Origin: an uncultured beta proteobacterium
GTDB lineage: Bacteria; Pseudomonadota; Gammaproteobacteria; Burkholderiales; Burkholderiaceae_C
Direction: 5' to 3'
Assembly (NCBI GenBank): GCA_903905735.1
Contig: CAIVHU010000312.1
Location: forward strand, 1 to 64,000
Length of the DNA stretch: 64,000 bases
In this document: positions 37,994 through 64,000 of the stretch, piece by piece
Position numbering within the stretch: the first letter of the stretch is position 1
How the letters are laid out: every line of letters starts with the position of its first letter
Notes under the pieces: model-generated
The model's input: only the letters and a program-made list of their open reading frames with translations
Told to the model about the DNA's origin: nothing
Database searches by the model: none
Made by a program: the position numbers and the translations under genes

Positions 37994-38025
37994 GAAGTAC
38001 CACCTTTTAGGATCCAGTTAAATGT

Positions 38026-40240: not shown

Positions 40241-40243
40241 AAT

Positions 40244-41436: not shown

Positions 41437-41593
41437 GTCCCTGCGTCAGCATTCATGGTCTGCGGCAACCCGAAGATCATGAAACTTTTTTCCCGTCAAT
41501 TCAAGTCACTGTAACTGGGTGGATCAGCTGTAGGCCTGGCACCTTGGCAGTCGCGCGGCTACCCTGGAGCGACCGCCTGAACGACGGCAAAAG

Positions 41594-41815: not shown

Positions 41816-41970
41816 ACAGTCACGGGGGCGGTTCAGGATGCAAACAAGGCGGGCACCCTGACCTCTTGCTGCGCCACCTCAGCACAAAACGACCCTTTTT
41901 CTCACTTGCACGCCAGCGGTATCAAGCACCAGCCAAACAGGCCGGTGTCTTTTTGCAACTGGAGTAGATC

Positions 41971-42312: not shown

Positions 42313-42335
42313 TGTTGCCGCTTTGACAGTCCATC

Positions 42336-45106: not shown

Positions 45107-45278
45107 CTGTGACAGGTCAGCAAAAGAGCGCCTGGCCCGACGCTTGCACAGGCACCCCCCCTGTGTCACCACAGTTTTACAGGTTGTTTGACTGTGGGAG
45201 GGCCATTTTCAGAGGCGGCCCATCGCCAACTTGCGAGCAGCCGGTATGGGGCAACCGAATTCACAAAAGGACATCCCC

Positions 45279-45980: not shown

Positions 45981-45994
45981 CTTGGGTGCTGGCG

Positions 45995-47725: not shown

Positions 47726-47734
47726 GGCAGCGCC

Positions 47735-49234
47735 ATGGATGCGCTGCACCAAGCGGAGAACTACCTCGTGGCCCGAGGTTGCGATATCCATAAGGTCAAA
47801 AACCATTTGATCGAATTTCGTCTGCCCGGTGAAACCAGCCGAACGCCCGGTGGGCGGCTGTCCGTGGCACGAGACGGTAAGTTGACGATGTGGCACCGCT
47901 ACGCAGAGAAAGGGCTCGCAGCAGGCTTACCCTGGCTTGCCGCGGGCAACATTCCAATTGGCAACACATCAACCCCGGCGCTCAAGACGCATGTCGACCA
48001 GTTGACCGTCCACCCAGAGCTGACGCCACTGGCCAAAGTGTCCAAATTTTCGTTTTTGCCGGGGCAACGGCGTTCGTATGACCCGGAAAAAGTGTGGCGT
48101 GCGGCCGATGCATCTTTGCAGGCGGCAGGGCTGATTGCGTCGCGCTTGCATGGGCGCTATCACGATGGCTCGGATCAAAAGCCGGTCTACAAGCTGCTGG
48201 TGTCCGACGACGGCCTTGCAACCGCTTTTTCGTTTCGTGGCGACATCGATCTCCCTGCACCGTGGCGGGCAGGTAGGCAAACCAGTGATGGCAAGAAAAC
48301 CATGTTTGTCACGGGACGCGACTTGGGGCTGGATGGCGATCTTGCACCGTCCCGGTCTTCACCTGCTTTACCGCGCCGAGCGACCCCGCCTGAAATTCAT
48401 CCGGTCAATCTGGACTTGAATCGAGACACCATCAATTCATGGTTGGCTGCTGAAACACCGCCCGCTGATCATCGGCACCTTGTCAAAGCTCATGCCGTTT
48501 TGGACGGCTCGGATTTGCGGGTGTATGCCAGAGATCATAGATTTGCTGGCGCGATGCTGGCACCCATGTTTCGCCCTGATCCGCTGGGCATGCCGGGCAT
48601 GGTGGAGTTGTGCGGTGTGCAACACCTGATGCCTAAGGTCGCGTTCAGTACCGACAAAATCATGGCCAAAGGTTCTCGGACCGTCGGTGCTTTCCTGCCC
48701 CTTCCCTCGCCTGATTCGTTGATGAAGGTGATGACCGACGAAGGGCTTGCCCCAATTCAAGCTTGGCTGGCAGTGGCGAATACATCCAAGCCGCTGGTGA
48801 TCTGCGAAGGAGTGGCCACAGGACTTGCGATTCAACAAAGCGGCGCAGGCAACACGCTGTGCGCCTTGTCGTCCAACAATGTGATGGCCGTCGCCAAATG
48901 GGTCAAAGAAACCGGCCTGTCGGACGTGTTTCCAAGTGTCGTCATTGCAATCGATCACGACATTGGCCGCGATGCAGCCGGAAGGCTCAAATCAAATGCC
49001 ATCGAACGCGCCTTGGAGGCTGCCAAGGTGACGGGCTTTGCTTTAGCGGTTCCGCCGGCCACCAGTCAGGTTGGTGCCGATGCGCGGGACTTGCTCGGCC
49101 AGGGCGGTCCGCAAGCGGTGCGTGACTTTATCGCCAGCGCTGCTCCGGATGCGGAAGTGGAGAAAGCGAGGGCTGACATTTTTTTGCCTGTCAAAGAAAG
49201 TCAACTGGCCGCTGAGCCTGAATTCGAACGGTGA
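47735..49234 (+). CDS. TOPRIM-domain primase-like protein
   Basis: A 499-residue protein starting 9 bases after trbL. Its C-terminal half has a TOPRIM pattern: KPLVICEGVATGLAIQQSGA with the conserved Glu, then PSVVIAIDHDIGRDAAGRLK with an acidic pair. The middle (residues about 240-345) resembles the conserved part of plasmid-borne primase-like proteins. I see no zinc finger or helicase domain. In conjugative elements such proteins may prime complementary-strand synthesis in the recipient; that role is inferred. It interrupts the trbL-trbF order. Confidence 0.72.
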   Translation: MDALHQAENYLVARGCDIHKVKNHLIEFRLPGETSRTPGGRLSVARDGKLTMWHRYAEKGLAAGLPWLAAGNIPIGNTSTPALKTHVDQLTVHPELTPLAKVSKFSFLPGQRRSYDPEKVWRAADASLQAAGLIASRLHGRYHDGSDQKPVYKLLVSDDGLATAFSFRGDIDLPAPWRAGRQTSDGKKTMFVTGRDLGLDGDLAPSRSSPALPRRATPPEIHPVNLDLNRDTINSWLAAETPPADHRHLVKAHAVLDGSDLRVYARDHRFAGAMLAPMFRPDPLGMPGMVELCGVQHLMPKVAFSTDKIMAKGSRTVGAFLPLPSPDSLMKVMTDEGLAPIQAWLAVANTSKPLVICEGVATGLAIQQSGAGNTLCALSSNNVMAVAKWVKETGLSDVFPSVVIAIDHDIGRDAAGRLKSNAIERALEAAKVTGFALAVPPATSQVGADARDLLGQGGPQAVRDFIASAAPDAEVEKARADIFLPVKESQLAAEPEFER

Positions 49235-49332
49235 AATCAGACACCAACAAATCGCGCAACGAGCCGTTGGGTGTTCAGGTCACAAGCCGCTAGGTTTGCT
49301 AGGCATCTATCGGTTGATGGTGCGTAATAAAT

Positions 49333-49379
49333 GATATGAAACATAGGTTATTATTCTCTTATATCCCATGTTTTGTATC
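49333..49379. promoter_or_regulatory. Inverted repeat before abiEi
   Basis: GATATGAAACATAGG (49333-49347) and CCCATGTTTTGTATC (49365-49379) form an imperfect inverted repeat with 12 of 15 positions paired, around an AT-rich centre. It ends one base before the GTG proposed as the abiEi start. Known AbiEi antitoxins repress their own promoters by binding inverted repeats, so this is a likely operator. Confidence 0.55.
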
Positions 49380-49380
49380 A

Positions 49381-50004
49381 GTGAATCCCAAGAATCAACC
49401 ATCCCAGCGCAATCGTGCTGTGGCCCATCTGCAGGCCGCGGGTATGTCGCGACTGAGTGAATTGACGGCAAAGGGCATTACTGCAGCGACGGTGTCGCGC
49501 CTTGAGCGAGAGGGCGTTCTCGTTCGCCTTGCCCGAGGACTGTATCAGTTGGCAGACGCGTCTCTCGATGTGAATCACACCCTTGCCGAGGCCTCCAAAC
49601 TTGTTCCCAAGGGGGTCATCTGCCTGACGTCGTCCCTGGCGTTCCACAGTTTGACTGACCAGATTCCTGCCAAGGTCTGGATGGCCATTGGTTCCAAAGA
49701 TTGGCACCCCACATTTGCATATCCGCCGGTTCGTTTCGCTCGTTTTTCAGGGCCACGCCTGCTGCTTGGTGTTGAGAGACACGTCATTGACGGGGTATCC
49801 GTGCCGATCTTCAGTGTGGCTAAAACCATTGCCGACTTATTCCGGTACCGGCAGACCGTGGGCATCAACGTGGCGCTGGAAGGACTGCGCGAGGCACTCA
49901 GACAAAAAAAGGCTTCGCCCGCCGACATAGCAAGAGAGGCGGTTGACGCCAAAGTCTGGAAAGTCATGGCGCCGTACATGAGTGCGTTGACATCCCATGG
50001 CTGA
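49381..50004 (+). CDS. abiEi: AbiEi-type antitoxin/repressor
   Basis: Antitoxin of a type IV AbiE pair. The 207-residue protein has an N-terminal winged HTH (GMSRLSELTAKGITAATVSR, LEREGVLVRLARGLYQLAD) and a C-terminal domain with VPKGVICLTSSLAFHSLTDQ and FSVAKTIADLFRYR, the standard family layout. I prefer GTG 49381 because the ATG at 49336 lies inside the inverted repeat and adds an odd hydrophobic leader. No clear SD is seen. It overlaps the toxin gene by 8 bases. Confidence 0.85.
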   Translation: MNPKNQPSQRNRAVAHLQAAGMSRLSELTAKGITAATVSRLEREGVLVRLARGLYQLADASLDVNHTLAEASKLVPKGVICLTSSLAFHSLTDQIPAKVWMAIGSKDWHPTFAYPPVRFARFSGPRLLLGVERHVIDGVSVPIFSVAKTIADLFRYRQTVGINVALEGLREALRQKKASPADIAREAVDAKVWKVMAPYMSALTSHG

Positions 50005-50869
50005 GCCCAAGAAACCGCGAGACGTCGGCACTTCGGTGCGCGCCCGCCTGCTGACGCTGGCACGCCAGAAGGGGCAGTCCTTTGACCTTTTGCTGACGCG
50101 CTATGCCAATGAGCGACTTCTGCATCGGCTCAGCCTGTCGCCCCATCGCGATCGGTTCGTACTCAAGGGCGCGATGTTGATGACAACTTGGTTCGATGAT
50201 CCGCACCGTCCGACCCGCGACGTTGATTTTCTGGGTTACGGCGATTCGGCTCCGGATGCGATGCTCGCCACGTTTCGTGAGATCTGCGCCATTGAGGTCA
50301 ACGACGGCATGGTGTTCGACATCGATGCGCTGCGCGTGGAGTTGATCCGCGAAGAGCTTGAGTATGGTGGCTTGCGTCTTCGCACCACTGGGGGGCTCGC
50401 CGGTGCGCGTATTACCGTCATCATTGACATCGGCTTTGGCGACGCCATTGAACCCGGCATTGACGAGGTCAATCTGCCGGTCCTGCTCGATCTGCCGCAG
50501 CCTAGACTACGCGTCTATGCCCGCGAGACGGTGATTGCGGAAAAATTTCAGGCCATGGTCATGCTTGGATTAGCCAACAGCCGTATGAAGGATTTCTATG
50601 ACGTGTGGATTCTGAGTCGGAGCTATGCATTTGATGATGACCGCCTGCCTCGGGCCATCGCAGCGACGTTTGCACGGCGCGGCACGGCTATTCCGCGTGA
50701 GACACCCTTGGCATTGACGCGGGCTTTTGCATTGGATTCAGGCAAGCAGCGACAGTGGGCGGCTTTCGTTCGCGATTTGGCCATCGACATCCCGGCTCTT
50801 GAAACGGTGGTGACAGACCTCGCCGAATTTTTGATGCCAAACGCGCAAAGTGCAAGAGAGCGGTCTTAG
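49997..50869 (+). CDS. abiEii: AbiEii-type nucleotidyltransferase toxin
   Basis: A 290-residue DUF1814/AbiEii protein, a nucleotidyltransferase toxin that halts growth when the antitoxin fails, causing abortive infection or stabilising mobile DNA. The active-site block is LKGAMLMTTWFDD plus PTRDVDFLGYGD, with the later conserved ETVIAEKFQAMV and RMKDFYDVWIL. It is translationally coupled to abiEi and lies between primase and trbF, breaking the trb order. Confidence 0.88.
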   Translation: MAEPKKPRDVGTSVRARLLTLARQKGQSFDLLLTRYANERLLHRLSLSPHRDRFVLKGAMLMTTWFDDPHRPTRDVDFLGYGDSAPDAMLATFREICAIEVNDGMVFDIDALRVELIREELEYGGLRLRTTGGLAGARITVIIDIGFGDAIEPGIDEVNLPVLLDLPQPRLRVYARETVIAEKFQAMVMLGLANSRMKDFYDVWILSRSYAFDDDRLPRAIAATFARRGTAIPRETPLALTRAFALDSGKQRQWAAFVRDLAIDIPALETVVTDLAEFLMPNAQSARERS

Positions 50870-51049
50870 CTTGATCGGCTGGGTCCCCGAAACTGCCGCA
50901 GTTGCTGCAATTGCCGCAATTCTTTTGCCCCTCAAAGGATAGGTTTTACGTCGTTTGGCACTGCGCTGCGTACCAAAACGATCGACGTCCATTTTGTGGT
51001 GCTTGCGCCAAATCGGTATCTGGCAACAGCACTCAAAAAGGACGCCTGC

Positions 51050-51703
51050 ATGTCAGAACAAAATCCCTACCTCAACGCCCGCCGGGAGTGGGATGAGCGC
51101 TACGGTGGATTGATCTCACGCGCGCGCAACTGGCAACTGATGGCCGCTGGCTCCTTGGCGGTCGCGGTGGTGGCCGTGGTGGGTATTGCGTTTGTCGGAT
51201 CCCAATCCAAGATCCAGCCGTTTGTGGTGGTCACCGACCAACTCGGCTCGCCAGTTGCGGTGGCTCGTCCCGCGCCGGTGGCCAGGGCTGACTTTGACAA
51301 GCGGCTGATGGTGGCTCAACTGGCGGCCTTCATCAAGGATGTGCGCTCCATGCTGCCCGATGCGGTTGCCCAGCAGGTCTCACTCAACCGGGTGTACGCC
51401 ATGGCGGGGCGCGATGTGGCTGGATTCTTGAATGATTTTTTCAAAGACAACTCACCTTTCTCCGTCGATGGTTCGGTCACCCGCGTCGAGGTTTCGTCCG
51501 TCATTCCTCAAGGCGGTGAAACCTACCAGGTGTCCTGGGTAGAAACCAAAGCCAGGCCCGGCGCGACGGCTGTGGCGCAGCACTGGAAAGCCATCGTCAC
51601 GGTCGGGGTTGACGCCAAGCTGGCAGAAAACCCCAAGGTCGCGCTCTGGAACCCGTTTGGCATCTACGTCAAATCCATCTCCTGGGCCAAAGAAGTTCTG
51701 TAA
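51050..51703 (+). CDS. trbF: Conjugal transfer protein TrbF (VirB8)
   Basis: TrbF is a bitopic VirB8-like scaffold of the channel. The 217-residue protein has NPYLNARREWDERYGGLISR at the start, one membrane helix (about residues 28-48) and a periplasmic NTF2-like domain, with WNPFGIYVKSISWAKEVL at the end. AGGA precedes ATG 51050. The 180-base gap from abiEii has imperfect direct repeats of TTGCCGCAA but no gene. Confidence 0.92.
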   Translation: MSEQNPYLNARREWDERYGGLISRARNWQLMAAGSLAVAVVAVVGIAFVGSQSKIQPFVVVTDQLGSPVAVARPAPVARADFDKRLMVAQLAAFIKDVRSMLPDAVAQQVSLNRVYAMAGRDVAGFLNDFFKDNSPFSVDGSVTRVEVSSVIPQGGETYQVSWVETKARPGATAVAQHWKAIVTVGVDAKLAENPKVALWNPFGIYVKSISWAKEVL

Positions 51704-51714
51704 AGGCCGTCATC

Positions 51715-52794
51715 ATGAAAAAACCCTTCACTCCCCTCAACACCCTCATCACCCTGGCCGCACTCACCTCAGCTGCCAGCGCATTTGCACAGCCAACGGC
51801 TGCCACTTCAGCAACCCAGCCTGCCACCTCTCAAACCCCAGCAGTTGAAGCCATCACCTTACAACCCACCCCAGCCAAGCAACAGGTCACGGCATCTCCA
51901 GACGTGTCAGCGCCCTCTCCTATGCTGCCAACAGCCAAAGCACAGGTTAAAAAACTTCCTGCCGCCGAGGCTGCAAGGCTTGCTGCAGCGCAACGCTGGG
52001 AACAAACGGGTGTGGCCGAGGCCTTGGTCAGTGCCGGTGGCGCGGTCGAATACCCCTATGGCTATTCACGTCCCACGATCACATGTGCGCCTTTGCACGT
52101 CTGCTCGATTGCACTGCAAGCAGGTGAAGCTGTCACCAGCGTGTCGATGGGCGACACGGTAAGGTGGTTATTGCAGACCGCAACAGCCGGGGCAAAGCCG
52201 GTGATGATGGTCAAGCCAACACAGGCAGGCCTGTCAACCAATCTGGTGGTGACCACAGACAAAGGCCGCATCTATTACGTGCACCTGGTGTCCAGTAAAA
52301 CCGAATACGTCCCAATGGTGAGTTGGTATGACCCGGCGGCCATGACCCGCGACTTGAGTGCTGAGGCGCAAGCGTCAGCTCGACAGCAAGCGGAACTTGA
52401 GGCATCGATGGCTGCTACCAAGATGGCCGCCGAACAAGCCAAAGCCCAAAGGGTCGTGGCTGACAAGACGGTTGGCAAGCTTGATCCAACAACGCTGGAT
52501 TTTGGCTACAACTGCAATGGTGAAGCAGCGTTCAAGCCGACTCGTGTTTTTGCCAATGCCACGCACACGTTTATTCAGATGCCACCCGGTACATCGGCCA
52601 GCGATGCACCGGCGGTGTTCAATGTCTCCAACAATGAAACCGAGCTGCTGAATTCCCGGCTGGTGAATGGCTACTACATCGTCGACGGCAAGCCCGCCAA
52701 GCTCAGTCTGATGTTGGGGGTCGGTGACAAGGCGCAAACCGTTCAGTGCCAAAAATCACAACCCAACGGTTTGTCTCGCTGGGGCGGCCAATGA
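51715..52794 (+). CDS. trbG: Conjugal transfer protein TrbG (VirB9)
   Basis: TrbG is the periplasmic/outer-membrane VirB9-like part of the core complex. The 359-residue precursor has a signal peptide (residues about 1-25, ending SAFA), a Thr/Ala/Pro-rich spacer, then VEYPYGYSRPTITCAPLHVC and the C-terminal domain FGYNCNGEAAFKPTRVFANA. It starts 11 bases after trbF and overlaps trbI (ATGA). Confidence 0.92.
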   Translation: MKKPFTPLNTLITLAALTSAASAFAQPTAATSATQPATSQTPAVEAITLQPTPAKQQVTASPDVSAPSPMLPTAKAQVKKLPAAEAARLAAAQRWEQTGVAEALVSAGGAVEYPYGYSRPTITCAPLHVCSIALQAGEAVTSVSMGDTVRWLLQTATAGAKPVMMVKPTQAGLSTNLVVTTDKGRIYYVHLVSSKTEYVPMVSWYDPAAMTRDLSAEAQASARQQAELEASMAATKMAAEQAKAQRVVADKTVGKLDPTTLDFGYNCNGEAAFKPTRVFANATHTFIQMPPGTSASDAPAVFNVSNNETELLNSRLVNGYYIVDGKPAKLSLMLGVGDKAQTVQCQKSQPNGLSRWGGQ

Positions 52795-54281
52795 TGTTCA
52801 GATTCGGCAAACAGCCCCAGGCAGACGATGCTGCTGACATTGAGGCCGCAGCCATGGATGGCCCGGGGCAGCCGCTGGAAATTCAGCCACCGCCGCCTGG
52901 CACCAAGCGGTTGTCCAAAAAGGGCCAGTTTCTGCTTTTGGGCGGCGCCTCCACGGTGGCATCGGCCATCTTGATTGGGGTGATGATCAGCGGCAAACGC
53001 GGTGATGATGCTGACTCACAAAAACAACTGACCGCCAGCGACGCACCAGGTCAAACGGTACCGTACAAGGAAAACGTGGAGGACATCCAGCGCAGGGCAA
53101 CCATTGCCGCTGCAGCGGCTGGACATCAAGCCACCCTTCAAACGGCTGATGGTCAGCAAACTGGTCCTTTGGCCAGCCGCTCGTCCAATGCCGTGGGCAA
53201 CTCTGGCAGCACCCGAACTGCCGGTGGTGGTGCCTCACCGCCCTCGCCCGCTGAGGCCCACCGGTTGTGGCTGCAAAAGCGCAAGTATGAGCGTCTTCAG
53301 GGTCAAATCATGGCGTCTGACTCAGCCGAAACGGCAGACATCAGCAAAGGCGGTGCTGCGCTGGCGGCCAGATCGGCTGCAGGCGGCATCATGGCCGTAA
53401 ATGCTGATGGTGAGGATGTGGACGGCGGTGCGAATCAAAGGCTGTCCGCCGCCCAAGGGCGTGCTGTGAACGCGCGTGCGAATGCCACGGCGGACGCCAT
53501 GCGCATGGCGAATTTGCCAGCCAGTGTGACCGGCACCAGCAAACCTGCAGGAAATTCACCTGCCTCTGTTGCTTCTGTTGCTTCTGTTGCTGCTGTCGTT
53601 CCTGCCGGTCTTGACCCCGCAGTAGCTGCCCAAGCCCGCAATAAGGCCTTCATGAAGGAAGCGGCTGATAGCGGCTACTTGCCAGAATGGCTCAAACCTA
53701 AGTTGGGCGAATTTGAGTTGACGGCGGGTTCCGTCATCCCCGCCGTCATGCTGTCTGGCATCAATTCCGATCTGCCTGGCACCATCGTTGCGCAGACCCG
53801 CCAAACGGTCTATGCCACCCACGACCCTGACGCGGTGGTTATCCCGCAAGGCTCGCGCCTGATCGGCAGGTACTCTGCTGATGTCGCCTATGGTCAATCA
53901 CGGGTGCTGGCCGCTTGGGATGAATTGATCTTGCCCAATGGTTCGCGCCTTGCCTTGCGCAGCATGGCGGCGGCCGATGGCCAAGGTCAATCCGGCATGG
54001 AGGATCAGGTGAATAACCACTTCTGGAAAACCTGGTCATCGGCACTGCTGGTGTCGTTCTTGGGGGTTGCCGCGCAACAGTCGCAACCGCAAAACCAGGG
54101 TGCATTCAACACACCATCCGGCTCGGCTCAAGCATCGGCTGCGGCCATGAATTCCCTTAGTGACGTGAGCTCAAAGATTTTGCAAAAGAGCTTGAACGTT
54201 TCCCCCACGCTGCAAATCCGCCCCGGCATGGCATTCAACGTCATGGTCAACCGCTCAATCATCTTGCCAAGCTACCGGTAA
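52791..54281 (+). CDS. trbI: Conjugal transfer protein TrbI (VirB10)
   Basis: TrbI is the VirB10-like protein that spans both membranes and opens the outer pore. The 496-residue protein has a cytoplasmic start, one membrane helix (FLLLGGASTVASAILIGVMI, about residues 45-65), a Pro/Ala/Ser-rich periplasmic linker and the C-terminal TrbI domain (LTAGSVIPAVMLSGINSDLP, VVIPQGSRLIGRY, LQIRPGMAFNVMVNRSIIL). It is the last trb gene and converges on the gene at 54259. Confidence 0.94.
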   Translation: MMFRFGKQPQADDAADIEAAAMDGPGQPLEIQPPPPGTKRLSKKGQFLLLGGASTVASAILIGVMISGKRGDDADSQKQLTASDAPGQTVPYKENVEDIQRRATIAAAAAGHQATLQTADGQQTGPLASRSSNAVGNSGSTRTAGGGASPPSPAEAHRLWLQKRKYERLQGQIMASDSAETADISKGGAALAARSAAGGIMAVNADGEDVDGGANQRLSAAQGRAVNARANATADAMRMANLPASVTGTSKPAGNSPASVASVASVAAVVPAGLDPAVAAQARNKAFMKEAADSGYLPEWLKPKLGEFELTAGSVIPAVMLSGINSDLPGTIVAQTRQTVYATHDPDAVVIPQGSRLIGRYSADVAYGQSRVLAAWDELILPNGSRLALRSMAAADGQGQSGMEDQVNNHFWKTWSSALLVSFLGVAAQQSQPQNQGAFNTPSGSAQASAAAMNSLSDVSSKILQKSLNVSPTLQIRPGMAFNVMVNRSIILPSYR

Positions 54282-54597
54282 TTTGGATGATTGAAATCGG
54301 GATGCGGTGCGGCAAGGAAACTTGATCGATACCCAGTCTGCCACTCGTGGCCAACGGCAGGGCCTGTAGCAGCGTCAACGCGCCGGTGGCTTGGGTTTCC
54401 TTGGCTTTTTTCAAAACCAGAATCTGCTCTGATTGGGCAACTTGGCTTTGCTGCATTTGCGTTGCGGTGTTGATCAGTGCGGTGGGATGGCTTGTCACAA
54501 GTTGACTTTGACCTGGGTGATGACTTCCCCGTGGTTTGTGGGCGAGGTTGACCTTGCGCTGGGATTGCAGGGGAATCTCGTTGGGCGCAACGCTCAC
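54259..54597 (-). CDS. YjfB-like putative motility protein
   Basis: A 112-residue reading frame starting at a GTG that overlaps the sbcC stop (GTGA). Residues about 34-80 (LINTATQMQQSQVAQSEQIL, then LKKAKETQATGALTLLQALP) closely follow the pattern of the YjfB family, small proteins of unknown role labelled putative motility proteins. The first 32 residues look disordered, and an inner GTG near residue 33 gives a size closer to the family. Its 3' end overlaps the trbI stop region. Function here is unknown. Confidence 0.5.
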   Translation of the reverse strand: MSVAPNEIPLQSQRKVNLAHKPRGSHHPGQSQLVTSHPTALINTATQMQQSQVAQSEQILVLKKAKETQATGALTLLQALPLATSGRLGIDQVSLPHRIPISIIQITGSLAR

Positions 54598-57500
54598 GCC
54601 ACCACAACCCGGCTCACCCCGCCCGCCTGACGCATCACCTGCACCCGCGTGCCGATGCGCTCAGTCATCTCTTGTACATGGGAGATCACCCCAACCTTGC
54701 GACCCAGAGCCTGCAAGTTGTCAAGCGCATCCATCGCCACTCGCAGTGACTCCGCATCCAGACTGCCAAAGCCCTCGTCAATAAACAGCGACTCCACCTT
54801 GACCCTGTGCGACGACAGCGATGCCAAGCCCAAAGCGAGTGCCAGCGACACCAGAAATGACTCGCCGCCCGACAGTGAATGGACTGAGCGCACCTCGTCG
54901 CCCATGTCCTGATCAACGACAAGCAGGCCCAGCGTGTCCTTGATGCGCTGCAAGCGGTACCTGCGACTCAGGTTTTGCAAGTGGCTGTTGCCATAGCCAA
55001 GCAAGATGTCCAGTGTGTATTGCTGGGCGAAGTTGCGAAACTTCTTGCCGTCAGCCGAACCGATCAGGTCGCTGAGTTGCGACCAGACTTTTGATGTGGC
55101 AGTTTGCTTGTCAATGGCAACCCGAAGTGATTCAGAAATCGATAGGCGGTCATCATCGCGGGCGAGTTCAAGTCTCAAGTTGGACAGTGCCTCGTTGGCC
55201 AGCTCCAACTCCTGAGCCACCTGAGTCAGGGTTTGCTGCAAAACCCCGGGGTCTTCGTTTTCCGCTCTGGTGGCCTCGTGCTCGGCAAGAGATTCCTTGC
55301 GGGTCTCCAACACGGCCTGGGCAGCACCTACGGACTGCACCAGTTGCTGTAGCGTCTCTCGCTCTTGCGTCAGCCACTGTGCGGGCACTTTCAGCAAAGC
55401 TTCGAGTTCATCCAGCGTCAGCGCTGACCATGCCGCAGCGGCCTCCTGTACCATTGCGTCTCGTTGTGCCTGTGCCAACGCATTGAATTCTGCCAACCAG
55501 GCGCTGAGTTGCGCACCTGCGATGTCGCGCGCCTCCCGATGCTGCATAAGCTGAACACCATTCAAGCGAACAGCTTCGAGCAGTCGCGTGACATCACCTT
55601 GCGCCTGGAGCAGCGTCGCCTGAGCTTGCGCCACCGCTTTCCTAGCAAAGTCAACGGAAGTAAACAACTCGTTCTCGACATCAAAAATCGGTCTGCCGCC
55701 AAACAGCGCCGCACGTTCATTTCGGCGATTGATCAGCTCAGCCTCTACCGTGGCGCGCAAGTCAGATTGAACCTTGAGTTGCTGAGCCGCCAGGTGGCAG
55801 GCGTTGACATAGCCACTGATCTGGACCTGCAAAGCTGCAATGGATGCACCCAGAATAGCTTTTTCCTGCTGTCTTTCACTCCAATCATTGGCTTGATCAC
55901 GGCATTCGGTGACAAAAGCGTCCGGATTTTGAACCCAATTCTGGCGCCAATCAGGAGTGGCAAAAGCTCCGTCAAGTTGCGCCTGAACCTGATTCAGCTG
56001 CGACTGGCCCTGTTCTAGCTGCTGTTGTGCCGCTGCAATGGATTGAGATGTCACCGTGCTTCTGATTTCTAGCTGGGTCAAGACATCCCGTGCCGCATCG
56101 ACAGCTTTCTTGGCGAGATCCAGCGTGGTTTGAGCTGCTTCCTTGAGCTTGAGTTGGCTTCTGTGCGCCTTTTCCTGTTTACCCAACTGGTCCAAACCAG
56201 CTTTATTGCTGACCTGCTGTGAGTCAAGCCACTCAAATCGGTCAGGCTCTGGCACTGCATCGACCTCAGACCGCAAGACCAGCGTATTCCAGTCGGCAAG
56301 TACCCCAGCCAGGCCAATGTCAAGTTGCGCCAAGTCCTTAACCAGTTGCTGGAGCTGCTGCTCGGCACTGGCTTTGCTGGTCGTCGCCGAAGCGGATCGT
56401 TGCAACAACGCATCAAGAGATTTGCGCTTGTCCTTGACCTGATCCTGCAGGCTCTTGAGCATCGCATCCGCCACTGGCGAGTGTGTTGCGTAAGGGTGCT
56501 CCAGCGAGCCGCACACCGGGCAGGGTTGATCAACTTGCAAGGCAGTGCGCAAGGTTTCGGCACCTTTGCTGGCCGCCAACTTGGCCAGACTGAGCGACTG
56601 TTCAGCGGTTGACAGGTCTTGCTCCAACAAGGGCTGAAGCTTGGCAACATCCAGCAGATCCTGATTGCAATTTGACAGCAGCGATTCCTGCGCCTGCTGC
56701 TGTTCGCGCTGTTTGACTTGCTGGCTGTGCACATCGCAGCGTTTTTGCCAAAGTTGCGCCGCTGTTTGCAAGTGATCACGACGATCCTCAAGCAGCTGTT
56801 TATCGTGGGTCAGTTTGTCGATATCTACGGCGGCACAAGCCTGGGTCAGTTCATCAAGCTTTTCCCCTGCCGCACTCAAATGTCCATTGGCAGTGCCCAA
56901 ATCGGCAAGTGCCTTTTCCTGTGCCTTGGTGATGCCTGTGGCGGTTGCCGTTAGTTCTTTGATCTCCTTTGCCGTTTTGTCGAGCTGCGTCTGGTGTCCC
57001 TGCGCTTGAGCAAACAAGGATTCCCACAGTTGCCAGCGTTCTGCCAGGGGTTTCAACTGCCCATGCTGGGCGATCCACGAATCGATCAAGGCCAACTCAG
57101 AGTTCGACTGTGCCAGTCGTTTGTCAGCTTCGTTTTTTTGTGATTGCTCTGCCTGAAAGTGTCGCTGGGCATCGTCTTGCGCCTTGCTGGCGGCTTTAAA
57201 CTGCGGCACTACAGCGTTGATGGTGGCATCCAGCGCTTTTGCAGCATTGATGTCTGCTTGCGCCAGCACTGTGCGGGTCTCCGCTGCGGCCAGTTGGTTC
57301 ACCGCTTTCTTGTGAGCGGCTTCATGGATGACGACGCCGGCGTTTGCCTCATCCAGAGCCTTCTGGCTGTCCGACTGCGTTTTCTCAGTGTCTGAAATCT
57401 GCTGGGTCAGGCGCTCAAGCTCCACCCACATCGGTCGCGCTGGTTGCACCTGCTCGACTCGGGTCAACTGTGCAAATCTGGGGGCAGCCAGGTCCCGCTC

Positions 57501-58367
57501 CATCGTTGCTGCTTCCAGTTTTTGGCTAGCGTCGGTTTGAGTTGCTTTGAGCTGATCCCACTGCTGGTGCCAGCGCAGGTTTCCCTCAGTCACAGCTTTG
57601 CGATCGCCCAGCACCTTGATGCTGTCGGTTTGCGCCTGGCGCTGAATCTCTTTTTCTTCGCGGACCTCGGGCAATAGCGGTGCCTGGTCCTTGAGTCTGG
57701 ATTGCAGGAGTTCGAGCTTTTCGTTCTCTGATTTCATCCTGGCAAACGCCTGTTTTGAAATCTGCGAGAAGGTCTCGGTGCCGGTCAGCGTCTGCAACAG
57801 TTCGGCGCGTTCATCGTCCGTGGCTTTGAGAAAGGCGGCAAAGTCATTTTGGGCCAGTAGCACGGCGCGGGTGAACTGGTCAAAGTTCAGACCGATGAAC
57901 GACTCAATCAGGCGCAAGGTTTCGGTTTTGCGGTGGTCTCCCAGCACTTGGCCATCATGAATGCGGGTCAGGCTGATGTCACTGTTTTGCAGTTTGCCCT
58001 CGGCTTTATTGCGTGAGCGCCGCACGTTCCAGCGTGACCGGTAGGCAACACTGTCGCTGCCGACAAAGTCCACCTCAGCAAACCCTTCGGCAGCGCCACG
58101 CCGCAGGATGGTGCGCGGGTCAGAAGGTGTGATCGAGTTGTCGCCCACGTCGGGCACGCTCTCGCCTTTGCTGGTGGCCTTGGCAAGTCGCGGGGTGTGT
58201 TCGTAAAGGGCCAGGCACAAGGCATCCAACAGGGTGCTTTTGCCAGCGCCGGTGGCACCGGTGATGGCATACAAGCCAGCGGATGCCAGAGGCTCAGACT
58301 GAAAGTCGATCTCAAACTCAGCAGACAGCGAGGCCAGATTCTTGCCCCGGATGGCGAGGATCTTCAT
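54594..58367 (-). CDS. sbcC: Exonuclease subunit SbcC
   Basis: SbcC is the SMC-like ATPase of the SbcCD nuclease, which opens DNA hairpins and processes ends. The 1257-residue protein has Walker A YAITGATGAGKSTLLDALCL near residue 35, long coiled coils around a zinc hook (QPCPVCGSLEHP near residue 615), and the C-terminal ABC signature SLSGGESFLVSLALALGLAS with Walker B FIDEGFGSLD. Its ATG overlaps the sbcD stop by four bases. Confidence 0.94.
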   Translation of the reverse strand: MKILAIRGKNLASLSAEFEIDFQSEPLASAGLYAITGATGAGKSTLLDALCLALYEHTPRLAKATSKGESVPDVGDNSITPSDPRTILRRGAAEGFAEVDFVGSDSVAYRSRWNVRRSRNKAEGKLQNSDISLTRIHDGQVLGDHRKTETLRLIESFIGLNFDQFTRAVLLAQNDFAAFLKATDDERAELLQTLTGTETFSQISKQAFARMKSENEKLELLQSRLKDQAPLLPEVREEKEIQRQAQTDSIKVLGDRKAVTEGNLRWHQQWDQLKATQTDASQKLEAATMERDLAAPRFAQLTRVEQVQPARPMWVELERLTQQISDTEKTQSDSQKALDEANAGVVIHEAAHKKAVNQLAAAETRTVLAQADINAAKALDATINAVVPQFKAASKAQDDAQRHFQAEQSQKNEADKRLAQSNSELALIDSWIAQHGQLKPLAERWQLWESLFAQAQGHQTQLDKTAKEIKELTATATGITKAQEKALADLGTANGHLSAAGEKLDELTQACAAVDIDKLTHDKQLLEDRRDHLQTAAQLWQKRCDVHSQQVKQREQQQAQESLLSNCNQDLLDVAKLQPLLEQDLSTAEQSLSLAKLAASKGAETLRTALQVDQPCPVCGSLEHPYATHSPVADAMLKSLQDQVKDKRKSLDALLQRSASATTSKASAEQQLQQLVKDLAQLDIGLAGVLADWNTLVLRSEVDAVPEPDRFEWLDSQQVSNKAGLDQLGKQEKAHRSQLKLKEAAQTTLDLAKKAVDAARDVLTQLEIRSTVTSQSIAAAQQQLEQGQSQLNQVQAQLDGAFATPDWRQNWVQNPDAFVTECRDQANDWSERQQEKAILGASIAALQVQISGYVNACHLAAQQLKVQSDLRATVEAELINRRNERAALFGGRPIFDVENELFTSVDFARKAVAQAQATLLQAQGDVTRLLEAVRLNGVQLMQHREARDIAGAQLSAWLAEFNALAQAQRDAMVQEAAAAWSALTLDELEALLKVPAQWLTQERETLQQLVQSVGAAQAVLETRKESLAEHEATRAENEDPGVLQQTLTQVAQELELANEALSNLRLELARDDDRLSISESLRVAIDKQTATSKVWSQLSDLIGSADGKKFRNFAQQYTLDILLGYGNSHLQNLSRRYRLQRIKDTLGLLVVDQDMGDEVRSVHSLSGGESFLVSLALALGLASLSSHRVKVESLFIDEGFGSLDAESLRVAMDALDNLQALGRKVGVISHVQEMTERIGTRVQVMRQAGGVSRVVVA

Positions 58368-59605
58368 GCGGTAACGCTCACTTCCTCGGGGGCATTCACC
58401 AGTTCGGTGAAGGCGGCCATGATGTCGGCAGGGGGTGCCACTTGATAGCGGTGCTGGTACAGGCGCTCAAAGTAGTCGGTGGGTGCCAGTGCGTTGAGGT
58501 CATCCACAGAAATGGCCGGTGCTGCCATGCCGGAGTCGCTTTGCGCAGTCGATGTTTCAATGCGGACCAGCCGCACCGGTTTGCCTTCCAGGGCAGCCTC
58601 CACCAGCGCGCGTAGTCCTGGCTCGGGTTGGTTGAGCAGAACCCGAACCTGCAGGTAGGGCCACTGGGCTTCTGGTCTGTCGGGCAGGTCAAGTGTCTTC
58701 AGGGCTTGCTGCACGGCTTCAATGGGCGCGGGCTGGGGTGGGACGCGCAGCAGGTCAACACTTCGAGGAATGCGGATGTCACGGGTTTGCGTCACAGTTT
58801 CGCCGTCGAGATCAATGACGACAACCTGATGGGGGTAGTCCATTTCCGAAAACGACATGGGCAGCGGACTGCCGCAGTACCGCCGGGTGGTATCACCGCC
58901 GATCTTTTGTGCCAAATGCAGGTGACCCAATGCCACATATGCGATTTGCGGGTCAAACACACTGGCCGACAGCGCCTCAATGCCGCCGATGACGATGCGT
59001 CGCTCGGATTCTTCAGAGACCTGGCCGCCTGTCATGTGACAGTGGCCCATGGCAAGGATCGCCTGACCAGCGCTGCGCTTGGAAGCAGCCAACTCGAACG
59101 TCTGGCGGTAGAGCAGCTCAATGCCCGCCATGTAGGGGTCGGCGCTGCCTTCCACCCGTGGCACATCGCCCGGTCGCAAAAACGGCATGGCGATGCACCA
59201 GGCGGCGACATCCCCGGTGCGGTTCTTGATGGGCACCACCAGGCGCTCCAGATCGATGCTGTCACCCATACGGTTGACATACCCGACCACACTGGCATCG
59301 AACCGGGTCAGAAACGGTGCTGGTGCTTCCAGGCGACCAGGAGAGTCGTGGTTGCCAGCGGTCATCACGATGTTGAGGTGCGGCACCCGGGTTCGGGCTT
59401 CGGTCAGAAAGCGGTAGAGCTGTGTTTGCGAGGCGGCTGAAGGGTTGGTGTTATCAAACACGTCACCGGCAATCAACAGGGCGTCAACCTGCTCGGCCTC
59501 CAAAGTGTCGAGCAGCCAACTCAGGAACTGCGCGTGTTCAAAGCCACGTTCAAACTGATGCAGGGTCTGGCCGAGGTGCCAGTCGGAGGTGTGGAGGATG
59601 CGCAT
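58364..59605 (-). CDS. sbcD: Exonuclease subunit SbcD
   Basis: SbcD is the Mre11-like metallophosphoesterase nuclease. The 413-residue protein has the metal-binding motifs HTSDWHLGQTLH, LIAGDVFDNTNP, TAGNHDSPGR and LAMGHCHMTGG, then a capping domain of usual size. It is first in the sbcD-sbcC-yjfB-like run on the minus strand. A host-type dispersed repeat lies just upstream of its start. Confidence 0.95.
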   Translation of the reverse strand: MRILHTSDWHLGQTLHQFERGFEHAQFLSWLLDTLEAEQVDALLIAGDVFDNTNPSAASQTQLYRFLTEARTRVPHLNIVMTAGNHDSPGRLEAPAPFLTRFDASVVGYVNRMGDSIDLERLVVPIKNRTGDVAAWCIAMPFLRPGDVPRVEGSADPYMAGIELLYRQTFELAASKRSAGQAILAMGHCHMTGGQVSEESERRIVIGGIEALSASVFDPQIAYVALGHLHLAQKIGGDTTRRYCGSPLPMSFSEMDYPHQVVVIDLDGETVTQTRDIRIPRSVDLLRVPPQPAPIEAVQQALKTLDLPDRPEAQWPYLQVRVLLNQPEPGLRALVEAALEGKPVRLVRIETSTAQSDSGMAAPAISVDDLNALAPTDYFERLYQHRYQVAPPADIMAAFTELVNAPEEVSVTA

Positions 59606-59726: not shown

Positions 59727-60140
59727 TCATGGAACAGCTACACCAGCGGATTGCTTGGATGATTCCAACTTCTTTAACCGGCCAATGGCAAGCTGTTTGA
59801 CGATATCGACTTCGTCGTCGAAGAGTCGTCGCAATACCCAAGGTTGAACATGATCACTAAGAGTTGCTGCTGCGCGCTGCAACCAGTCCGTAGACGTTGA
59901 AGCTTCCTTAGTCCGCTCTGCGACCTCGCGCTCCTGCAACAAACCCAATGCCCTCATTGCCGAAGGCAAATCACTCAAGCCAATCGTCGAGAAGTCGCGT
60001 TGGGTTGAAGCCGACTCATTGGCCATTTCAGTCAGTAAATCCGATGTACTGGCGGCATTTTTCCGCATATAAACAGTAATTCCGCTGTCAATAAGATCTG
60101 CAAATTTATGTTGAGTGGATTTATTCATCTTAATATTCAT
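59727..60140 (-). CDS. Hypothetical protein
   Basis: I do not recognise this 137-residue protein. It is Ser/Thr-rich and helical, with KFADLIDSGITVYMRKNAAS near the start and LLQEREVAERTKEASTSTDW in the middle; no membrane segment or signal is seen. ATG 60140 and ATG 60128 are both possible, neither with an SD. It lies between the VWA gene and sbcD in the same direction, with a gap of about 100 bases before it. Confidence 0.55.
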   Translation of the reverse strand: MNIKMNKSTQHKFADLIDSGITVYMRKNAASTSDLLTEMANESASTQRDFSTIGLSDLPSAMRALGLLQEREVAERTKEASTSTDWLQRAAATLSDHVQPWVLRRLFDDEVDIVKQLAIGRLKKLESSKQSAGVAVP

Positions 60141-60243: not shown

Positions 60244-61422
60244 TTACCCGCCACGCGATGGGGCTGACACCATCCGCGCCACTTCCCCAAAAGGAAAGCC
60301 AGTGGACTCCAGCCCGCCAGGCATCACCACCCATAGTACGGGCGATTCCGGTGGTGCCCGTGGAAACGAACCATATCCATCGGTGAAATAAATGCTCAAA
60401 AGCAGGGTGCCGCCGCGCTCCTGCTGTGCAACCCAACCAAAGAATGGTTCAAAGGCGGTGCCACCGCCGCCCCTGGCTTTTGGCATGGGAGCATCTTTAC
60501 TGAACTCATATGGGCCGTACAACGCTGCATCGGAAAAAAACAATGTCCCACGAATCTGTGGATAGGCATCCAGAATGCCCTGGATTTCACCTATAAAAGC
60601 GCCAAGCTCGGCGCTGCCGATGGAGCCGCTGGTGTCGATGCAGATAGCGACTTCAACCGATTCGCCGACAACATCCTCAAGATACAGCTTGCGGTGAATG
60701 AAGCGCCGGTCGAAACCGCCAAAGTCATATGGCGTGGCCACCATGAATTGCCACAGAATCTCGCGCCAAGTCAGGCTTGGGTTGGTGGCACCGTCAAATT
60801 CGCGCAAACCGTCAATCCCGTTTCTCCCAAAGCCACGGGCCATACGCCTTGCTACAGCTGCTGCCTGTTGGAGCGCAGAAGACCAATGCCGATCTAGCTC
60901 CGTTACAGAACGAATGAGGAGACTTCCAGAAGAAGATCCTTCCCCACTCTCAGAACCACTTTCACCAATTTCCAGATCAAATAGAGAAATATCTGGCAAT
61001 TTGTACCGGCCACTCAAAAGTTGTTCATATACGTCATCAACGCTTAGATGAGACAGCTTGACCATTTCCACTCCTCCAGATGGAAGGGAATAGTCCGTGT
61101 CGCTACGAATCATTCCATTGACAACGATATCAGCCGCGATGTTCCATATGTGAGGATCCCTCTGAAGACGCCGACCGATGTGGCGAAGTGCGACATGCAG
61201 CAACTCGTGAACAAAAAGTCCACAAAGCGCCTTCCGGTCAAGCTTCCTTATGAAGTTTGGATTGAACCAAATTTTTCTTCCATCGGTGGATGCAGTTTGA
61301 ATTCGATCTGACACGACAAATTCCGCATACAACGCCAAGGTACCGAAAAAAGGGTGATCACCTCGAATTCGTAATTGAACACCCTTTAACTTTCTAGAAG
61401 AATCATCAATCAAATCTTTCAT
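60244..61422 (-). CDS. DUF2201 VWA-like putative metallopeptidase
   Basis: A 392-residue two-domain protein. The N-terminal domain carries a zinc-protease-like motif FVHELLHVALRHIGRR (H72, E73, H76) followed by IWNIAADIVVN. A Ser/Glu-rich linker lies near residues 152-167, and the C-terminal VWA-like domain has the MIDAS pattern CIDTSGSIGSAEL (D263, S265, S267) and FTDGYGSFPRAPP. Genes of this class usually pair with a MoxR AAA+ ATPase, and the end of one lies three genes upstream here. MoxR-VWA pairs remodel protein complexes or insert metals; the target is unknown. It starts 19 bases past the LRV-like gene. Confidence 0.85.
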   Translation of the reverse strand: MKDLIDDSSRKLKGVQLRIRGDHPFFGTLALYAEFVVSDRIQTASTDGRKIWFNPNFIRKLDRKALCGLFVHELLHVALRHIGRRLQRDPHIWNIAADIVVNGMIRSDTDYSLPSGGVEMVKLSHLSVDDVYEQLLSGRYKLPDISLFDLEIGESGSESGEGSSSGSLLIRSVTELDRHWSSALQQAAAVARRMARGFGRNGIDGLREFDGATNPSLTWREILWQFMVATPYDFGGFDRRFIHRKLYLEDVVGESVEVAICIDTSGSIGSAELGAFIGEIQGILDAYPQIRGTLFFSDAALYGPYEFSKDAPMPKARGGGGTAFEPFFGWVAQQERGGTLLLSIYFTDGYGSFPRAPPESPVLWVVMPGGLESTGFPFGEVARMVSAPSRGG

Positions 61423-61441
61423 AGATATGATGAAGGCACAA

Positions 61442-62026
61442 TCAAAGTAGACCTTCTTCGCAGGTTATTTCGACACCGGTATCAAGCCGCAAGATGGCGT
61501 TAATCATCTTTACAGGCGTATGCGGATTTTTTACCACACCTTTTAAGACACTCGAACTAAATGAATTTCTCTTTTTATAAAAATTGTAAGCCCAAACAAC
61601 TATAGATTGCGGGCATTCCTTTTGTTCCAAAATTTTGGCAAGCGATGATTCGTAAAGATTTTCTAAAAAACCAGGATTTTCCAAAATCACAAGATCAAAT
61701 GCAGGATTTAACAGAAATGCCCGTGGATATTCATCTGCGAGATTATTGAGAATTTCCAGCGGAGTATTAGGATTCCCTGTAACACACTCGCGAGTTATGT
61801 CATCTGAACTATATGACAGTTTTTTAAGAGTGTCTGCACCCGCACGTTTGCTAGACGCAATAAGTCTGTCAATTTCGACACTTGTACCCACCAATGATTC
61901 CAACTCATCCACAGTACACAACGAATCCCGAATGCGACTCGCAAGGCTCTCATTACTATTCAATGCTTCGGTCATTATGCTTCCGATCAAATCAATGTTC
62001 ACAGAGAAATACTTCTCTTTCCTCAT
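61442..62026 (-). CDS. Variant leucine-rich-repeat-like protein
   Basis: A 194-residue helical protein. It carries repeat-like segments of the form SSDDITRECVTGNPNTPLEI with LNNLADEYPRAFLLNPAFDL, and later SVLKGVVKNPHTPVKMINAI. The phrase V-x-x-NP-x-TP recurs, as in LRV/Armadillo-like alpha solenoids of bacteria. I infer a protein-binding scaffold. AGGA precedes ATG 62026, and the gene overlaps the DUF4246 gene by 35 bases; an inner ATG at 61975 would remove the overlap. The coding DNA is AT-rich. Confidence 0.6.
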   Translation of the reverse strand: MRKEKYFSVNIDLIGSIMTEALNSNESLASRIRDSLCTVDELESLVGTSVEIDRLIASSKRAGADTLKKLSYSSDDITRECVTGNPNTPLEILNNLADEYPRAFLLNPAFDLVILENPGFLENLYESSLAKILEQKECPQSIVVWAYNFYKKRNSFSSSVLKGVVKNPHTPVKMINAILRLDTGVEITCEEGLL

Positions 62027-63608
62027 AGCTTTCCTTGTGCAACTTTCTCTCAGCCATCAACGCAAGCCGATTCCTAAGCGCATCATCTAAAGACAGGACT
62101 CCTTGTTGCTGAGAAACATTTGCAGTTGAAACAATGGGGTGCTCTGGATTTACGAGCCAGAATACAACAATGCGTCTCGTTGCATCCGCTCCATCTGAGG
62201 AATACATACTGCTTAATCGATGAATATGAGAATTCGGAAAAACCACAACACGATTTGCCGGAGTTTTCAAACTTCCTAGAGGCCGCACATCACCGCCTCC
62301 CATTTTGTCTGTTGGGCGATTTGCATTTTGCGGCGTCGAAGATATTAAATCATCTCCCTCATCCGCGAACAGAAATCTGCGAAACTCGATTTCAGCACCG
62401 GCAAAATTATCGTCGCGCTGAACAATGCAAAGGGCTGTCGCAAGGACTTCCTCGTGAGACATGCCTTCGACATGCCAAACACCATCGAAATTTTCTTCGC
62501 GATTTACTCTGTACTCCACGATTTTCGTGACAACCTGTAGTGTTCTATTCCTTAAGGAAATGGATTTGATGCCTTTTTCTACTCCGTCAACGCCATAAAA
62601 GTCATTTCTCAAAGATGAGCAAACTGACTCAAACATCGGCAGCACACTCTCAAACATGCGCTCCAATATGCTGTAAACGCCAGAATATTTATTTCGATCC
62701 AAATTATTAATATACGACTCAATCCTCGCCTTGCCATCTTCCGAGATAAAAAACTCTGCTGGCAACCATTGATAAATAGAGTCTTCATACTCCCGCCCCC
62801 AAAAATCTTTATCTCCATGTTCCGACTCTTTAGCCCCTTCACTTTTTCCTAAAGGATCTCCCGGACTTCCATTAACTTTGGAAATCCCTTTAACGTAGCA
62901 GTACATGGACGGGTGAACGATATCTCGTACAACCTTGCCAGACCCTGGATGGAAGTCAGCCGGTTCATTTTTACAAATTTCATCTAGTGACTCATTCAAA
63001 TTTCGAACCAATGCCGCAGGTAATATTCGGTCGGACCATGCAACATTTTCAACTTTAGTGCTTTTTGCGTGTACATTCTTAAACGCGTTCATGGCCTTTG
63101 TTGATATAACTGAATATCCATCAATAAAGCCTTTAAGCTGACCGCTTAGATAGTAGTCTCCTTCTTGCTTTTCGTATAGCTTCGCTTTGATTCTTCCTGA
63201 AGTTAAATTAATTCCAGATTTCAAATCATCTGCTTGGGTCGAATTTTTTTTCACAAAACTGGTGGGGGCTTTTACGGAAAATTTCACAATGAAACCACTG
63301 GTTTCACTATTGAACTCTGACAACGTTGAAAAGTCAAAAACTTTGCCTATGTACTCGTTATCTTCATCATCAATTAAATCCAATTCACTCAGCTTCTTTC
63401 GAATAGCGATCATCTGCTTTGATTCAGCAATCTTTCGAAAAATAGTGCCTATTCCAATCGAAACTCCCATAAAATCAACACCAACCACCTCAACGGTGTC
63501 ACCAAGTTCTGGAGCATACAAATATTTATCAGGGCACAAGCGTCCAAGGGGGCTTGCATAATCCGTGAACTCATTAAAAAAATTAAATTTAGCTACTTTA
63601 TTTTTCAT
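61992..63608 (-). CDS. DUF4246 protein, 2OG-Fe(II) oxygenase-like
   Basis: A 538-residue protein whose C-terminal two thirds match the pattern of DUF4246, a family I know mainly from fungi. Typical pieces are DSIYQWLPAEFFISEDGKAR with ESYINNLDRNKYSGVY, then GVWHVEGMSHEEVLATAL, RVVVFPNSHIHRLSS and RRIVVFWLVNPEHPIVSTAN. H379 and E381 (HxE) with H463 could bind iron, and R478 or R479 could bind 2-oxoglutarate. The first about 190 residues are not recognised. GGAGG precedes ATG 63608. It follows the MoxR gene by 32 bases. Enzyme activity is inferred. Confidence 0.7.
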   Translation of the reverse strand: MKNKVAKFNFFNEFTDYASPLGRLCPDKYLYAPELGDTVEVVGVDFMGVSIGIGTIFRKIAESKQMIAIRKKLSELDLIDDEDNEYIGKVFDFSTLSEFNSETSGFIVKFSVKAPTSFVKKNSTQADDLKSGINLTSGRIKAKLYEKQEGDYYLSGQLKGFIDGYSVISTKAMNAFKNVHAKSTKVENVAWSDRILPAALVRNLNESLDEICKNEPADFHPGSGKVVRDIVHPSMYCYVKGISKVNGSPGDPLGKSEGAKESEHGDKDFWGREYEDSIYQWLPAEFFISEDGKARIESYINNLDRNKYSGVYSILERMFESVLPMFESVCSSLRNDFYGVDGVEKGIKSISLRNRTLQVVTKIVEYRVNREENFDGVWHVEGMSHEEVLATALCIVQRDDNFAGAEIEFRRFLFADEGDDLISSTPQNANRPTDKMGGGDVRPLGSLKTPANRVVVFPNSHIHRLSSMYSSDGADATRRIVVFWLVNPEHPIVSTANVSQQQGVLSLDDALRNRLALMAERKLHKESYEEREVFLCEH

Positions 63609-63640
63609 TTTTCCTCCAGATTGTTAAATTTGAGATTTGA

Positions 63641-64000
63641 TTAAATAGAAAAGGCCAAATCACGCATATTCCGTGAAAATTCTTTTAATTTCGAATTGCC
63701 ACTAATTAATTGAACCAGGTCACCAAACTGACCGCGCTCGCGCAGTATCCTGAATAGGTCACTTGCATAGAACTGGACCCACTCGGCTCCAGCTTTCGCA
63801 ATGAGCCACTGCAATGCGTTGACGCCCCTCTCGGCGGAGTCTGTGCGAACTAGCAGACCCAGAACAGTCGCATAGCGCGCTGAGGACTCGGTAGGAAATT
63901 TAACTTTCCCTGATCCGTCCAAAATGGACTCCAGATCCGGAAGATTTTCGTAAATGCTGCAAAAGGCATTGAACTCTTCGGAGGGGCCCGGGCCGACCGC
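63641..64000 (-). CDS. MoxR-family AAA+ ATPase, C-terminal part
   Basis: The frame is open to the window end, so only about 119 C-terminal residues are seen. They begin AVGPGPSEEFNAFCSIYENL and continue PDLESILDGSGKVKFP, then TESSARYATVLGLLVRT. This fits the region after the ATPase core in MoxR proteins that pair with DUF2201/VWA partners. The Walker motifs would lie outside the window. It is the first visible gene of the cassette read toward 60244. Confidence 0.65.
   Translation of the reverse strand, partial: AVGPGPSEEFNAFCSIYENLPDLESILDGSGKVKFPTESSARYATVLGLLVRTDSAERGVNALQWLIAKAGAEWVQFYASDLFRILRERGQFGDLVQLISGNSKLKEFSRNMRDLAFSI

Follow-up and report, generated by a model that had tools for sequence, protein, structure and literature searches.

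The window analysed here, positions 1-64000 of the 65,678-base contig C312 (CAIVHU010000312.1) of an uncultured beta proteobacterium, ends in a tightly packed run of four genes, all on the minus strand and all with open frames. They encode a MoxR ATPase, a DUF4246 protein, a short LRV-type solenoid protein, and a DUF2201 protein that combines a metallopeptidase-like domain with a vWA domain. The pair formed by MoxR and the vWA protein, together with an LRV solenoid, is a recurrent unit across distant bacteria. DUF4246 is best read as a local add-on and not as a core part: among the members seen, the copy in the window is the only one beside MoxR-DUF2201. We hypothesise that the LRV-MoxR-DUF2201 trio is an LRV-guided, ATP-driven protease or remodeller, placed behind BrxL as an accessory to defence or quality control, with DUF4246 as an acquired addition, and put the probability of this reading at about 0.5. 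The genes are as follows.

63641..64000, minus strand: MoxR AAA+ ATPase, 3' part in the window (Pfam match; whole gene at contig positions 63641-64642, 333 residues)
61992..63608, minus strand: DUF4246 protein, 538 residues, with a putative HxE...H / Arg metal-oxygenase site (PF14033, 2e-54)
61442..62026, minus strand: short LRV-type solenoid protein, 194 residues (phmmer homology to the N-terminal part of larger LRV proteins)
60244..61422, minus strand: DUF2201 protein, N-terminal metallopeptidase-like domain (HExxH) and C-terminal vWA domain with a complete MIDAS (Pfam DUF2201_N and DUF2201)

The stop of the MoxR gene (63641) and the start of the DUF4246 gene (63608) are separated by a gap of 32 bases, the DUF4246 and LRV-like genes overlap by 35 bases, and a gap of 19 bases separates the LRV-like and DUF2201 genes. 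An initial annotation of this DNA had given the same coordinates and spacing. It had also named the upstream gene as MoxR, and had noted HExxH and MIDAS residues in the last gene, an HxE...H plus Arg set in the second, and NP-x-TP repeats and an LRV-like character in the third; all of these hold, as described below.

A MoxR alignment scan of 84,980 species genomes yielded 203 relatives, and the analysis was restricted to the best 80. MoxR was placed in 78 of the 80 loci, L068 and L115 being dropped because no MoxR open reading frame (ORF) passed the filter. DUF2201 is present in 73 of the 78 loci and LRV in 54, with both in 50, and the trio loci come from Cyanobacteria, Chloroflexi, Deinococcota and Burkholderiales. 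For loci with at least 3 kb on both sides, the figures are 56/56 for DUF2201 and 40/56 for LRV. The next same-strand ORF of at least 150 residues beside MoxR is DUF2201 in 67 loci and LRV in 48 (n=78). Of 65 loci with an ORF of at least 120 residues directly before MoxR, 39 have LRV in that place; elsewhere it was found in 0-6 loci at places -6 to -2, and in 1-11 loci at +1 to +7. A more distant group of MoxR-DUF2201 loci served as a control, 20 loci being picked by hand from the matches, two of them from one genome. LRV was found in none of the 20 (Fisher p 5e-9, uncorrected for kinship; the two groups differ in taxonomy as well). The nearest plasmid relatives of the DUF2201 protein are on Synechocystis pSYSA and Thermus oshimai pTHEOS01, both with MoxR adjacent, and in pTHEOS01 an LRV gene is directly upstream on the same strand (weak match, 8.8e-6). 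No description of the trio was found in the literature searched, which did not cover subscription papers or outside preprints.

Read beyond the window end, the MoxR gene is complete (contig 64642-63641, minus strand, 333 residues). Its protein matches AAA_5 (8.2e-9) and AAA_3 (2.8e-6) in Pfam and has the Walker A sequence GPPGIGKS. It is 72-76% identical to the MoxR of five Burkholderiales records; the closest relative of the locus is in Limnohabitans sp. 2KL-1, with 76% identity in MoxR. A profile search of the PDB gave Midasin as the sole match.

The DUF2201 protein matches DUF2201_N (6.4e-29) and DUF2201 (2e-15), the latter match ending at residue 384 of 392. The HExxH motif (H72-E73-H76) is in the N-terminal domain, and the MIDAS consists of D263, S265, S267, T322 and D348. 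H72, H76, D98 and the MIDAS residues are kept in all 39 aligned DUF2201 proteins, and E73 in 37 of them, another residue being found in L117 and L136. The conservation of D98 suggests, as a guess, a candidate further metal ligand. Structure prediction supports a vWA fold for the protein. A DUF2201 profile search of the PDB gave no match. No papers on DUF2201 function were found, judging by title, and literature matches to the Pfam and COG accessions were, on the same basis, unrelated.

The LRV-like protein of the window contains two NP-x-TP motifs, NPNTP and NPHTP, and matches no Pfam family, LRV included, even at E 5. Its assignment comes from phmmer, which matches it to a protein of the Limnohabitans locus L059 (3e-41) and to one of L060 (3e-38), both of which carry LRV by Pfam; the homology is to the N-terminal part of these larger LRV proteins. 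Short LRV genes directly before MoxR are also found in L061, L062 and L064 (171, 188 and 177 residues), and the 99 LRV ORFs overall span 171 to 1425 residues. In-frame tandem DNA repeats are present in 10 of the 99 LRV ORFs, compared with 7 among 392 other ORFs of at least 300 residues, the commonest unit in the LRV ORFs being 78 bases. The presence of such repeats in some LRV genes fits a changing recognition role. The LRV gene of Synechocystis pSYSA (L035 7100-7903), for example, has about ten tandem 78-base units with an 87% match.

The DUF4246 protein matches PF14033 with 185.7 bits, well above the curated cut-off of 26.7, and its first 185 residues fall outside the match. Residues H379, E381, H463 and R478 are invariant in 4/4 aligned DUF4246 proteins, in keeping with the family. 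We take them to be a putative Fe(II)/2-oxoglutarate oxygenase site, as they fit the HxD/E...H plus Arg pattern of such enzymes. A single-sequence structure model had a mean confidence score (pLDDT) of 34.7, unusable for judging a double-stranded beta-helix fold, a sequence search of the PDB gave no relative, and no paper on DUF4246 was found.

The initial annotation had proposed that all four genes form one dedicated system, in which the DUF4246 enzyme depends on the MoxR-vWA pair for its maturation or gating, and its target is picked by the solenoid. Such a system would account for the tight gene run with its 35-base overlap and for the conserved metal-site residues, and there is a precedent in NorQD, a MoxR-vWA pair that, in the parts of the two accounts drawn on here, inserts iron into an enzyme (PMC9976466, PMC13036017). 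Outside the window, however, DUF4246 was found beside the pair nowhere. It is missing from all 78 loci with close MoxR relatives, from the 398 other genomes of an order sample and from the 397 of an overlapping phylum sample (the own genome matching in both), and from the 39 whole genomes behind MoxR loci, a scan in which no positive control matched. Phage records gave no match to it. Viral contigs searched with single DUF4246 and DUF2201 sequences gave no relatives, though the phage collection does hold DUF2201 relatives. DUF4246 was found in three plasmids, two of Streptomyces and one of Embleya; within 6 kb, neither of the two annotated ones has a gene that is named MoxR or VWA, and the third record is unannotated. 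The collection of 84,980 species genomes was scanned with MoxR and not with DUF4246, and rare DUF4246 pairs elsewhere may exist. As far as searched, DUF4246 and DUF2201 genes are thus rarely adjacent, which the initial annotation had itself named as evidence against its proposal, and we regard the dedicated four-gene system as improbable. Because the pair and LRV occur without DUF4246, maturing an iron/2-oxoglutarate enzyme cannot be their general function; at the locus in the window it is possible. Here DUF4246 may be a client of the MoxR-vWA pair, or merely a co-expressed enzyme.

The base composition of the cluster bears on how it was assembled. The guanine plus cytosine (GC) content is 39.7% for the LRV gene and 41.4% for the DUF4246 gene, which are clearly AT-rich, and 52.7% for MoxR and 51.1% for DUF2201, which are mildly so, the flanking genes being at 57.8% (BrxL) and 61.0% (SbcD). 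Within the DUF2201 gene, the 5' half is at 44-48% and the 3' half at 54-58%. The cluster had been described as AT-richer than its surroundings, which is marked for its two middle genes and slight for the outer two; the further suggestion that all four were transferred as a unit was rejected, the GC content being stepped rather than uniform. The AT-rich block is the middle of the cluster and not the whole four-gene run, and by itself is therefore no argument for joint transfer. Identity by halves against four relatives reveals no clear break: the vWA protein is 60-65% identical over residues 1-150 and 59-74% over residues 170-392. In MoxR the values are 82-86% for residues 1-170 and 63-66% for residues 170-333, and a similar drop is seen in 2/3 pairs of relatives.

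The GC steps, from 39.7-41.4% in the middle to 51-53% in MoxR and DUF2201, would also suit a chance neighbourhood, with DUF4246 and a short AT-rich LRV gene as passengers in a decaying MoxR-DUF2201 pair. The shortness of the LRV gene points the same way. Decay does occur, since the one close MoxR (E 1e-75) among 298 other genomes of the family has a cut frame, with 270 residues open on a 5,968-base contig (its frames were inspected by eye and not scored for partner genes). In the window, by contrast, the four frames are all open and closely spaced, the active-site residues are intact, and the short LRV gene has counterparts of 171-188 residues directly before MoxR in L061, L062 and L064. We consider a chance neighbourhood very unlikely, the least probable of the explanations weighed here.

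The trio is best read as a variant of published MoxR-vWA ternary systems. According to the parts of two papers used here, MoxR-vWA pairs are the regulatory core of predicted conflict systems that include a third, sensor-like component, with the named kinds VMAP, iSTAND, FtsH, beta-propeller, iSTAND2 and TERNS3 (PMC7159879, PMC8195603). The trio likewise has a MoxR ATPase, a vWA co-chaperone with a MIDAS and a sensor-like third protein, but here the third component is an LRV solenoid, and the main text of the 2020 paper on ternary systems, so far as covered, names neither LRV nor DUF2201 (PMC7159879). The peptidase-like domain in the window is N-terminal of the vWA domain, whereas effectors of ternary systems are typically C-terminal in the portion of the account used (PMC8195603); in the iSTAND kind, peptidase effectors are on the vWA protein, according to the part drawn on of a 2026 BREX survey (PMC12839542). 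The known ternary third components gave no Pfam match among the window proteins at E 0.1, in a search not aimed at remote iSTAND or TERNS3 homology. The MoxR and DUF2201 pairs of plasmids, genomes and phages have the same two proteins, adjacent in several of the records examined, but differ in that the control loci have no LRV and that phage records gave no match to the window LRV protein at 0.01. RavA-ViaA and NorQ-NorD, in the excerpts of the literature available, are also a MoxR AAA+ protein with a vWA partner, acting on client enzymes or inserting metal. To our knowledge they have no HExxH domain and no solenoid partner, and belong to different MoxR subgroups.

On this basis we propose how the module might work. 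The LRV repeats would recognise a target, which may be a protein or a protein-DNA complex, and the vWA/MIDAS domain would dock one of the target's peptides onto the MoxR hexamer, which would then use ATP hydrolysis to pull or remodel the target. The HExxH domain would cut it, or would become unlocked to cut. By analogy with the MoxR-vWA conflict systems, the sensor role would fall to LRV, that of ATP-driven loader to MoxR-vWA and that of effector to HExxH. Placed behind BrxL, the module may act as an accessory defence layer, or in protein quality control during phage attack, and DUF4246, a putative iron/2-oxoglutarate-type enzyme, may have been acquired at the window locus as an extra client or effector. 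While the gene set, its recurrence and the conserved residues were observed directly, each of these functional steps is one that we infer from them. A bolder version, which we offer tentatively and as rather doubtful, is that the trio is an undescribed class of ATP-driven, solenoid-guided immune protease, able to dock as a second layer behind restriction-type systems like BREX and Druantia and to take on new enzymes; the DUF4246 oxygenase of the window would then modify a target of either the phage or the host. Of the many MoxR-vWA pairs, few have a client that is known. With its protease-like, ATPase and peptide-docking sites intact, a repeat protein resembling a recogniser, and copies located behind BREX and Druantia, the trio is a defined, cloneable set for testing whether a regulated protease is operated by this AAA+ family in defence against phages. 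The locus with DUF4246 would show, as a natural experiment, what happens when such a machine gains an enzyme.

Several observations weigh against the proposal of an LRV-guided machine in defence. LRV was not found in 24 of the 78 loci, and in ten selected loci where LRV does not hold the place directly before MoxR, the genes found there are unrelated to one another, ranging from a trypsin-like protease to a tRNA synthetase. In Synechocystis pSYSA the LRV gene is about 4 kb away on the other strand, and the window LRV protein is without a long repeat array. We know of no demonstrated peptidase activity for DUF2201. The structure-search matches for the DUF2201 protein mainly cover residues 241-388 and bear little on the N-terminal fold; no zincin appears among them for the N-terminal domain, which with this coverage excludes nothing. 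Phage records contain 638 MoxR relatives (at 1e-20) and 368 DUF2201 relatives (at 1e-5), and the pair is therefore not host defence as such. Among 72 same-strand neighbours, hand-picked and with no background set run, so that no defence enrichment is claimed, the Pfam families met most often are pentapeptide repeats, with 6 matches, and short-chain dehydrogenases, with 5. PADLOC matched 69 families at 1e-8 in the same set, counted per family and not per protein, and among the 25 listed none matches more than three of the neighbours. A defence setting is not established as general for the module.

The phage relatives, adjacent in cyanophage S-TIM5, and the absence of defence families among the commonest of the chosen neighbours would equally suit a general chaperone or protein-quality set, whose place behind BREX and Druantia would reflect no more than the way accessory genes commonly crowd together on islands. 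A close MoxR in one of 298 family genomes is, however, rare and patchy, unlike a housekeeping gene, and the excess of tandem repeats in LRV ORFs suits a changing recognition role. We hold the general chaperone set to be possible but less probable than the LRV-guided accessory module, and the most serious of its competitors. In S-TIM5 (L148 4995-7135) MoxR adjoins an unnamed relative of DUF2201.

The initial annotation had placed the cluster beside mobile DNA, as a hint at defence or stress response; locally, a defence setting and mobile DNA are both borne out, with BrxL upstream and conjugation genes at about 36-54 kb. The BrxL gene ends 185 bases upstream of the MoxR start on the same strand and is cut by the contig end (PADLOC, 1.9e-118), C312 holding this end of BrxL alone from BREX. 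A BREX type I set (BrxA, BrxB, BrxC, PglX, PglZ and BrxL, all six by PADLOC) is on contig C310 of the same genome. The module is directly 3' of brxL, yet none of its genes is part of the BREX core, and all four genes of the cluster lie beside BREX without being members of it. The main text of the BREX survey, in the part covered, does not name DUF4246, LRV, 2-oxoglutarate or metallopeptidase, and has MoxR-vWA once, as a comparison (PMC12839542). C310 ends in 126 bases that match without a difference the C312 stretch at and after the BrxL stop, while between the two BrxL genes (that of C310 and that of C312, L002 6828-7676) 92 of 838 bases are different. One sequence is thus shared behind two alleles or copies of BrxL, from either two strains or two copies, that is, a second BREX copy. 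On C310, a 365-residue AAA ATPase gene with an AriAB-like PADLOC match (1.3e-26; L143 13207-14304) and other small genes are found between pglX and pglZ.

Other loci have further defence-related neighbours. In Limnohabitans sp. 2KL-1 the gene order is DruE, WGR-LRV, MoxR, DUF2201, WGR-LRV, with DruE of Druantia type III (PADLOC E 0) directly upstream of the LRV gene. In L060 the upstream genes encode a TIR protein, a WGR-tailed NAD-dependent DNA ligase and a WGR-LRV protein; genes resembling these TIR and ligase genes were seen by eye in L061, which also has an ankyrin-DUF4132 gene. A Mokosh-like protein (MkoA, 1.8e-49) is among the neighbours in one Synechococcus locus. The ligase of L060 (4743-7370) contains WGR and BRCT domains, and that of L061 (3575-6220) is similar by eye. 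In L061, SbcD-like and Rad50/SbcC-like genes (12256-16028; by eye, with weak PADLOC matches) lie between DUF2201 and an LRV-matching gene.

Elsewhere in the window, positions 36,910-54,281 contain conjugation and plasmid genes, a mobile element ending beside SbcCD genes. Its features are given by position.

36910: transglycosylase
38567: VirB11-like T2SSE
40312: TrfA
42515: VirB4/TraG-like
45986: TrbL
52746: TrbI

Within this conjugation region, 49336-50869 encodes a type IV toxin-antitoxin, with an AbiEi antitoxin-like protein (1.3e-7) and an AbiEii nucleotidyltransferase toxin (3.6e-49). A 137-residue frame with no Pfam match above cut-off is found at 59727-60140, between DUF2201 and SbcD. 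The SbcC and SbcD genes (54594-59605, named by eye) follow the module on the same strand. They were considered as part of it and rejected: in the stretches examined from three other genomes of the genus, none of the query proteins for BREX, the module or conjugation lies beside SbcD. SbcD is present at E 1e-60 in 4 of 40 genomes of a genus sample, own genome included. Two further SbcD alleles of the own genome are partial; they lie on C224 and C341, and each of these contigs starts at residue 192.

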